A stretch of 42,429 bases of DNA. Source: Synechococcales cyanobacterium PMM_0072 (GTDB lineage Bacteria; Cyanobacteriota; Cyanobacteriia; Cyanobacteriales; Chamaesiphonaceae). The position numbers and the translations under genes are program-made. Every line of letters starts with the position of its first letter. Position 1 is the first letter of the stretch. Under the pieces are notes generated by a model. That model made no database searches. It was not told the origin of the DNA and was given only the letters and a program-made list of their open reading frames with translations. Positions 5,554 through 9,462 of the stretch are shown piece after piece. The stretch lies in NCBI GenBank assembly GCA_949127675.1, contig CASBPY010000248.1, positions 1-42,429 on the forward strand, written 5' to 3'.

Positions 5554-8500
5554 ATGCACCGTCTCGCAACTATTCCAGGTGGTTGGAACCCTACGGCTGA
5601 AGGGGTAATCTTTGTCGAACAGCAGCCAGCACCGATCGCATTTATTACCGCCGCCGATACTGATATCCAGACATTAGCAGTTGCAGCGACTAAATTACCA
5701 GCAGAGTTTCCCCAAGTGCGGGTGGTGAACTTGTTGCAACTCCAGCAGCAATTGACGATCGATACCTATGCCGAGGATGTATTGACGGCGGCGAAGGTGA
5801 TAATTGTCCGGTTGATTGGGGGTCAATCCTACTGGAGTTATGGACTGGAAGTCGTGCAGGAGACGGCTAGGCAGACGGGAGCGGTGTTAATTGTTCTGCC
5901 AGGGGATGAGCGTCCCGATCCGACCTTGATCAGCCATTCGACGGCGAGTTTGGCGGATGTCGATCGAGTGTGGCAGTATCTGATCGAAGGTGGGGTGGAT
6001 AATTACCGTCAGTTATTGAATTTTATCGCTAGTCGGTGGTTAGATTTTGAGTGTGGATATCGATCTCCTCAAGTGGTACCCCGTGTGGGAATTTATGATG
6101 AGGTGAGATGGTTGCCGGAGGGACTGCCAAGCGAGGGCGGGGCGGCGATCATCTTCTATCGGGCGCATTATCTATCTGGAAATTTGGCAGCGATTGAGGC
6201 ATTGTGTCAAGCTTTGATCGATCGAAAGCTCACTCCAGTGCCGATTTATGTGTCTTCGCTCAAAGATCCGGTAGTGCAGCGGATATTGACTAGTTATTGC
6301 CAGCAGGGTGTGGATGTTTTACTCAATACCACCAGTTTTTCACTGGCAAGTTTGGACACGGATACGCCCCAGGTAGGCTTTTGGGCAACGCTGAATTTAC
6401 CTGTTTTTCAGGTGATTTTGAGCGGTGCGGGGAAGGAATTTTGGGAATCTGGTTGGCAGGGTTTGACACCCCGCGATATGGCGATGAATGTCGCTTTACC
6501 AGAGGTGGATGGGCGGATTATTACGCGGGCGATTTCGTTTAAGGCGGTGCAAACTCAGAACTCGGCACTTCAGACAGATGTGTTGGTGTATGAACCTGTG
6601 ATCGATCGAGTCGAATTTGTGGCAGAATTAGCTTTAAATTGGAGCAAGCTCAGGGAAACGAATGTATGCGATCGCAAAGTCGCCCTCATCCTGGCAAATT
6701 ATCCGACTCGCGATGGGCGGTTGGCGAATGGGGTGGGTTTGGATACACCCCAAAGTTGTGTGGAAATATTGCACGCGCTCAAGGCGGCAGGTTATCAGGT
6801 GGGTGATATTCCCGCTGATAGTGGGGAGTTAATTAAATTATTAACCGCCGGAATTACCAACGATCCTGAAGGTGAGGGTTGGCGGAATGTTTATCAATCA
6901 TTGTCTGAGGAGGAATATCAGGCGCATTTTGAGACGCTGCCGATCAAGGTGAAAGAAGGGATAATCGACAGGTGGGGCGATTGTTGCAATCAAGAAGGGT
7001 ATTCGCATTCGACAACCCTAGATGGGGGGTACCCACGAGTGGCACCCCTACAGATGGCAAATGGGTTGGCGATTGCTGGGATTCAGTTTGGGAATGTATT
7101 TGTGGGGATTCAACCAACGCGAGGGTATGACAAAGATCCTGACTTAAATTATCATGCGCCAGATCTGGTTCCACCTCATCAATACGTCGCATTTTATCAT
7201 TGGGTGAGGGCCAATTTTGGGGCAAATGCGATCGTTCATGTCGGCAAACATGGCAATTTAGAATGGCTCCCAGGCAAAAGTGTCGCCCTGTCTGAAAATT
7301 GCTATCCCGAAGCTGTATTTGGCGCAATGCCGCATTTATACCCCTTTATCGTCAACGATCCTGGTGAGGGTTCCCAAGCGAAACGCCGCACTCAAGCAGT
7401 AATTCTCGATCATCTCACGCCACCAATGACACGGGCGGAACTCTACGGAAGTTTGCATCAGTTGGAGGGTTTAATCGATGAATATTACGAAGCCCAAACC
7501 CTAGATCCGCTGCGGATGCCAGTAATTCGCGATCGATTAATCAACCTCATCCACCAAGAAAACCTCCACAAAGATCTCGGCATCAACGATAAATTCCCCT
7601 CCGAGGAGGGGTGGCGCGACAGCGACGGGGTGGGTGCCGATGCGATCCTCACCCAATTCCTAAACACCGCCGACGGTTATTTATGTGAACTAAAAGAAGC
7701 GCAAATACGGGATGGTTTACATATTTTTGGGCAATGTCCCCAGGATACCCAATTACGCGATCTAGTTGTCGCGATCGCCCGTAATCCTAATACTAATAGA
7801 CTGGGATTAACACGCGCGATTGCACTTGATTGGGAGTTAGATTTCGATCCATTGACGGCAGATTTAGCCCTTACTCTTTCAAAGGAGCCGGATTTTTTTA
7901 ACCGCAGAGGCGCAGAGAGCGCAGAGATGGAGAAAGAGAGCGAGAAGTTACAATATATCGATCGATTATTTCAAGATAAACTAAAAACCTGTCGAATCAT
8001 CGGCGATGTAGTAGAAATACTCGAAGAATCCGCCGCCGAATTAGTAACGGCAATAATCGACAACCAAGAACTACCTAATATTGGCGAAAACACTCGATCG
8101 GAATTAACCTGGATATCCACTAAATTACTCCCCGCACTTCAACAAACTAACCTCGAAATGGTTAACCTCCTGCGCGGATTAAATGGTGAATATATCCCCT
8201 CTGGTGCATCCGGCGCACCCACCCGTGGTAAACCCGAAGTCCTCCCCACTGGGCGAAATTTTTACTCAGTAGACATCCGCGCCGTACCTACCGAAACCGC
8301 GTGGTGCTTAGGAAGAAAAGCCGCCGAAGTGTTGGTCGATCGATATACTCAAGACAATGGTGAATATCCCAAAACCCTTGGCTTATCGATTTGGGGCACA
8401 TCCACCATGCGAACTGGTGGCGACGATATCGCCCAAGCTTTAGCCCTCATCGGTGTTCAACCCGTCTGGGATGGAGTATCGCGGCGAGTCGTGGATTTTG

Positions 8501-9462
8501 AGATCTTACCACTATCAATTTTAGGTCGTCCCCGCGTCGATGTCACCCTGCGAATTTCTGGCTTTTTTCGCGATGCTTTCCCGAATCTGATCGATTTATT
8601 CGATAGTGCAGTTAAAGCCGTCGCCGCCTTAGATGAAACCCCAGATCAAAATCCCCTCGCCGCCCAAGTGCAACAAGAGCGAGTTAAATGGCTAGAGCAA
8701 GGAGTTGGAATAGATGAAGCCGAAACTCGATCGCAATACCGGATTTTTGGCTCGAAACCTGGGGCTTATGGTGCTGGATTGCAAGGTTTAATTGAGTCGC
8801 AAAACTGGGAAACTGAGGCAGATTTAGCCCAAGCTTATATTAATTGGAGTGCTTATGCTTATACCAGTAAAGCTGAAGGAATATCCGCACCCGAAGCATT
8901 TAACCAACGCTTAGGCAATATGCAGATCGTCCTCCAAAATCAAGATAATCGCGAACATGATTTACTCGATTCCGATGATTATTATCAATTTCAAGGTGGT
9001 TTAACCGCAGCAATTAAAGCAGTTTCAGGCAATACCCCCGAAGCCTATTTCGGCGACAATTCTCGCACCGAACAGCCCAAAGTTCGTAAACTGACAGAAG
9101 AGATAAATAGAGTGTATCGATCGCGTGTCGTCAACCCTAAATGGATCGCCGGAGCCATGCGACACGGCTACAAGGGAGCCTCAGAAATGGCAGCGACATT
9201 AGATTTCTTATTCGCCTACGATGCCACCGCTAATTGCGTTCAGGACTTCATGTATCAAGGTGTAGCGGATGCTTATTTATTCGACGAAAATGTCCGAGAA
9301 TTTATCGAACAAAATAATCCTTGGGTACAGCGAGATATGGCGGAAAGATTATTAGAAGCTAATCAGCGGGGTTTATGGAAAGAGGTGGCACCAGAGACAG
9401 TCGAACGGTTGAGGTTGATGGTGAATGAGGCGGAAGGGGTAATTGAATCTCAGGGGAATTAA
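5554..9462 (+). CDS. cobN: Cobaltochelatase subunit CobN (CobN/ChlH-type large subunit)
   Basis: 1302 aa; [93 protein letters not shown] motifs. Confidence 0.92.
   Translation: [1302 protein letters not shown]
7023..7053. repeat. Repeat-like segment inside cobN (tggggggtacccacgagtggcacccctacag)
   Basis: Imperfectly palindromic GGGGTACCCA...TGGCACCCC of the type frequent in cyanobacterial intergenic DNA; in frame, encodes [10 protein letters not shown]. Confidence 0.55.
7594..7634. repeat. Repeat-like segment inside cobN (ttcccctccgaggaggggtggcgcgacagcgacggggtggg)
   Basis: Hairpin CCCCTCC/GGAGGGG plus GGCGCGACAGCGACGGGGTGGG; in frame, encodes [14 protein letters not shown]. Confidence 0.6.
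7898..7926. repeat. Repeat-like segment inside cobN (ttaaccgcagaggcgcagagagcgcagag)
   Basis: Encodes NRRGAESAE, a recurrent cyanobacterial repeat peptide; in frame. Confidence 0.7.

Follow-up and report, generated by a model that had tools for sequence, protein, structure and literature searches.

In the window, a 42,429-nucleotide contig (C248), the gene for the cobaltochelatase subunit CobN contains members of three unrelated families of short repeats that are dispersed through the same genome. CobN is the cobalt-inserting enzyme of vitamin B12 synthesis, and this cobN is an intact, orthodox member with its core under purifying selection. The genome (G000) comprises 2.92 Mb in 303 contigs and is 83% complete; its near relatives bear the database label Chamaesiphon. 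With good confidence, we explain the repeats by loops that put up with in-frame insertion in an otherwise normal CobN, so that repeats active in the lineage build up there passively.

Table 1. Position of cobN, three of its variable loops, and the repeat copies within them
Feature	Position in window	Strand	Basis
cobN, cobaltochelatase subunit CobN, 1302 aa, intact	5554..9462	+	TIGR02257, PF02514, core dN/dS
Variable loop 1, residues 475-506, 32 aa here; 8-125 aa between fixed anchors	6976..7071	+	31 orthologues
Family 1 copy in loop 1, GTAG-tagged REP in reverse-strand reading, encodes GYPRVAPLQ	7023..7056	+	copy count, consensus
Variable loop 2, residues 672-706, 35 aa here; 15-41 aa	7567..7671	+	31 orthologues
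Family 2 copy in loop 2, cccctcc/ggagggg hairpin in 5' part	7591..7635	+	core count, relatives, RNA hairpin
Variable loop 3, residues 769-816, 48 aa here; 12-92 aa	7858..8001	+	31 orthologues
Family 3 copy in loop 3, encodes FNRRGAESAE, near consensus over ~34 nt	7894..7927	+	copy count, consensus

A sequence-only reading had proposed three repeat-like segments lying in frame in an intact cobN. That proposal was borne out, and it withstood both of the refuting checks that it had named. The open reading frame runs through all 1302 codons without interruption, and GGYPRVAPLQ, FPSEEGWRDSDGVG and NRRGAESAE are read from it at segments 1, 2 and 3, respectively. Throughout the genome, the core of segment 1 (7027-7048) has 54 matches with at most 3 mismatches, the family 2 core CCCTCCNNGGAGGGGTG has 14 and family 3 has 13, versus none for the reversed-pattern control in each case. 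Almost every other copy of the three families that was inspected lies outside long ORFs. Each family is multi-copy, although the long specific form of segment 2 is itself single-copy in this genome, its exact pattern matching only itself. Several long ORFs overlap repeat copies near one of their ends (L096, L004, L005, L008, L117, L129, L130 and L133); these repeats may precede the actual start codon and were left out as insertions. Two clear exceptions inside ORFs were seen in the same genome, both in ORFs named by reading their sequence: a PurL-like ORF in which a family 1 copy is read in the frame used in cobN, giving GYPQGAPLQ (L095; G000:C173, repeat 8930-8951), and a mannosidase-like ORF with an in-frame family 2 copy, giving FGYPSKEG (L131; G000:C170, repeat 2052-2068). 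The fragmented, incomplete assembly could raise the suspicion of a chance resemblance or an assembly chimera, but the controls without a single match, and the recurrence of the phenomenon in the three-contig genome G006 and in named isolates, leave either with next to no probability, and we rejected both.

The identity of the host enzyme is clear. The protein matches the CobN equivalog model TIGR02257 over its full length with 1647.8 bits, twice the cut-off of 822, whereas every Mg-chelatase H model scores below its own cut-off (BchH, 697 bits versus 829). PF02514 spans residues 140-1279, CobN proteins (9uk9 and 7c6o) come nearest among solved structures, and 614 anchor residues are conserved. 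For the core, dN/dS was 0.057-0.078 in comparisons with G003, G004, G005, G006 and G008. The idea of a relaxed or alternative chelatase, also raised from the sequence, is contradicted by the model scores, the intact frame and the low dN/dS; only the long nonhomologous loops speak in its favor, and we rejected it as highly improbable.

All three segments map at or beside gaps in the alignment with the solved CobN structures. An AlphaFold model of residues 190-1302 (pLDDT 56, pTM 0.34) was too poor for a fold search; it places the three loops in low-confidence coil, which counts for little because much of the model is equally low in confidence. Since the model is poor, it is the variability in length and the alignment gaps that suggest that the loops are surface exposed.

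Eleven segments of CobN differ in length between fixed anchors, and the chief variable sites (at least seven) are residues 181-201, 262-280, 474-507, 671-707, 768-817, 827-851 and 1103-1112. The repeat copies sit in three of these length-variable loops, in keeping with the tolerant loops proposed earlier. In the CobN alignment, which covers about 40 of the 60 relatives, the loop flanks are approximately 90% identical within the genus and the loop content is unrelated. Over one aligned stretch, loop 1 measures 21 aa in G009 and G010, 45 aa in G000 and 138 aa in G003, and loops 2 and 3 differ correspondingly. In G009 and G010, which belong to the sister genus, the loops in this alignment are short and free of repeats. 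Relatives without the repeats have no peptides of equal length at these sites, the DNA of loops 1, 2 and 3 measuring 51, 87 and 81 nt in G009 versus 123, 123 and 183 nt in the window. Other Chamaesiphon species hold different repeats in the same loops, with up to 5 segments and 295 nt. Long tandem peptide repeats were also seen in CobN, near residue 185 in G013 (L035) and in loop 1 of G014 (L089).

The length of CobN varies far more than that of its paralogue ChlH: by open-frame length in the same set of genomes, CobN ranges from 1229 to 1455 aa (SD 60), versus 1325 to 1360 aa (SD 10) for ChlH. ChlH serves as a control for size and family, but it is probably more strongly expressed than CobN, and the repeat load of CobN could owe something to low expression or large size.

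Family 1 (sequence GGGTACCCACNAGNGGCACCCC) fits a known class of mobile repeats, the GTAG-tagged REPs, which are described as having a GTAG end, an imperfect palindrome, inverted dimers and an association with RAYTs (PMC3733652). On the reverse strand, its consensus starts with GTAGGGGTGCCC and ends with GGGTACCC, the GTAG standing at the end of an imperfect palindrome within the 20-40 bp range. Many copies form pairs of opposite orientation about 15-17 nt apart, as expected of dimers; the copy in cobN is a single unit. A Y1_Tnp match whose frame is broken by a stop (G000:C289:12557-12814) adjoins two family 1 copies, and another Y1_Tnp match, in G006 (C1:141724-141981), has a copy at a distance of about 300 bp. 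The locus of the first match (L249:12557-13206) looks like the remnant of a RAYT-like Y1 transposase with an in-frame stop, and the two neighboring copies are on the same strand. Because of the GTAG end, the imperfect palindrome, the inverted dimers and the Y1 matches near copies, family 1 was probably mobilized by a RAYT-type Y1 transposase. The REP assignment covers family 1, not families 2 and 3; for all three, the route by which they reached cobN would be transposition.

The original family 1 pattern is carried by 8 of 9 Chamaesiphon genomes. G008 and G005 share the loop 1 copy with the window, and G003 has an eroded version; the insertion is therefore probably older than those species. 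The 45-nt family 2 element also recurs in other Chamaesiphon genomes, with 84-95% identity in the better matches of a DNA search; in the second half of the cobN copy, the sequence has diverged from the consensus of its own genome. The family 3 copy was seen in G000 alone and is near consensus, and therefore this insertion looks recent.

RNA folding showed that segments 1 and 2 form hairpins. Combined with the family 1 insert common to the window, G008 and G005, which has thus outlasted speciation, this is what could be expected if the insertions were retained for a function, for example, as a loop that binds a partner or, between folding units, as an mRNA hairpin or a pause in translation. However, loop content and length differ in every species, no conserved motif is left, and the sister-genus relatives and Crocosphaera are wholly without inserts. 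We regard retention for a function as unlikely and return to the tolerance of the loops, under which the insertions would be effectively neutral and the repeat peptides would be translated and retained in the protein.

To compare CobN with other genes, we counted ORF-interior segments matching at least 2 intergenic places in samples of 85-347 ORFs from five genomes. In G006, the sample comprised 0.81 Mb of the three-contig genome and 347 ORFs with a minimum length of 250 aa; the count there is 5 (295 nt) for CobN and 1 each for 13 other ORFs. CobN has 4 such segments in G003 (runner-up, 2) and 3 each in G014 and G041 (runner-up, 1 in both). In the genome of the window it has 2 by this strict test, with family 2 below the threshold, and four other ORFs have 1 each. 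CobN ranks first in all five sampled genomes (Poisson P of 1.4e-7, 6e-6, 6e-6, 8e-4 and 1e-3), the values for G014 and G041 being biased because these two genomes were picked for long-looking loops.

Capture of repeats by CobN extends beyond Chamaesiphon. Loop 1 of CobN contains TGCCCNA heptads in Calothrix brevissima, Nostoc carneum and Nostoc sp. 106C, the genomes of which have 1070, 778 and 89 matches to this pattern, respectively. In Crocosphaera watsonii, the pattern has no match in the genome and the CobN loop is short and without inserts. Goleter apudmare has a different repeat of 24 nt in loop 1, with 13 matches in its own genome. Among six cyanobacterial genomes drawn at random, two were confirmed: CobN of G046 contains a 35-nt repeat with 10 matches in its own genome, and in G031 an CCCCCCTTATTAAGGGGGG element with 34 genome matches lies inside cobN (C22:124213). 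Two others of the draw, G042 and G049, have short loops and no CobN repeat, although G049 is rich in one repeat; G037 and G026 stand outside the verdict. Judged from these sequences, repeat capture appears to be a recurrent property of cyanobacterial CobN. We put the odds at about even that such capture recurs in CobN throughout the phylum, with the mobile repeats of each lineage repeatedly becoming loop peptides that record repeat activity.

The absence of a CobN repeat from the repeat-rich G049 indicates that abundance in the genome is insufficient for capture. This would fit a second explanation, in which repeats insert preferentially into the DNA of the cobN loops, further ones landing beside or within a first palindromic repeat, so that the choice of target and not protein tolerance alone fills the loops. 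In G003 and G006, members of several families are clustered in the loops, and by eye one repeat is interrupted by another. These interruptions, in cobN loops 1 and 3 (L079 and L083), look like nested in-frame insertions. Against target preference, the sites within the one protein are independent, the families differ by lineage, and all insertions are at length-variable sites and not spread over the gene. Target preference is possible, but we doubt it.

According to the explanation by tolerance, three unrelated short dispersed repeats would have inserted in frame into three CobN loops. The variable sites would lie between rigid, conserved blocks of the protein, and insertions that are free of stops and a multiple of three bases long would be tolerated there, while all others would be lost. 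In most genes, such insertions would be purged. Since in-frame, stop-free insertions would be tolerated at its variable sites, cobN may passively gather whichever small repeats move in a lineage.

Elhai and others have studied short cyanobacterial repeats, both dispersed and tandem, which are reportedly small, lineage specific and mostly intergenic, and the repeats in CobN are of the same kind. The nearest precedent for capture in frame, already named in the sequence-only reading, are the Rickettsia palindromic elements (RPEs), which are 105-146 bp long and occur in frame in many protein genes (Ogata et al. 2000; reviews PMC2229807, PMC10969869). The likeness holds in principle: small dispersed palindromic repeats are fused in frame within a conserved enzyme, and RPE hosts stay functional. 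With segments kept in frame and a core under purifying selection, cobN would resemble the RPE host genes if its product is active. Compared by description, the cyanobacterial CobN elements differ from RPEs in that they are 34-45 bp long, outside the RPE size class, and in that several unrelated families enter one enzyme in several lineages. Fusions of MITE or ERIC elements also join small mobile repeats in frame to genes, but they measure about 100 bp and more and are scattered over enterobacterial genes (PMC2759123, PMC10969869), whereas the CobN elements are concentrated in one enzyme.

REPs inside genes have been reported as well, including double insertions in uvrA, and also in recB. Family 1 shares with GTAG-tagged REPs and REPINs (PMC3733652; PMC3116915) the GTAG end, the imperfect palindrome and the inverted dimers, and the RAYT-like remnant beside two copies may point to a RAYT association as well; it differs in that CobN is the top target in several genomes, while the available portions of these two papers describe no single metabolic enzyme in such a role. 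A literature search with little coverage of subscription journals returned no report tying CobN to repeats. Thus, intragenic repeats such as RPEs and REPs are known, and one enzyme as a recurrent trap for several families is new in the sense of being absent from the literature searched.

Most descriptions of selfish repeats captured in frame have them dispersed across unrelated genes. CobN offers natural replicates of how mobile DNA turns into protein, which sites tolerate it and how long inserts persist. If capture is indeed phylum-wide, CobN would naturally record the activity of repeats and serve as a model of selfish DNA becoming protein, and its loops may be a practical marker of which repeats were once active in a genome. 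The loops are also places where gene models and assemblies can break. Among the draft cobN contigs of G001, G002, G004 and G008 (L075, L077, L080 and L084), several break in or near repeat-filled loops.
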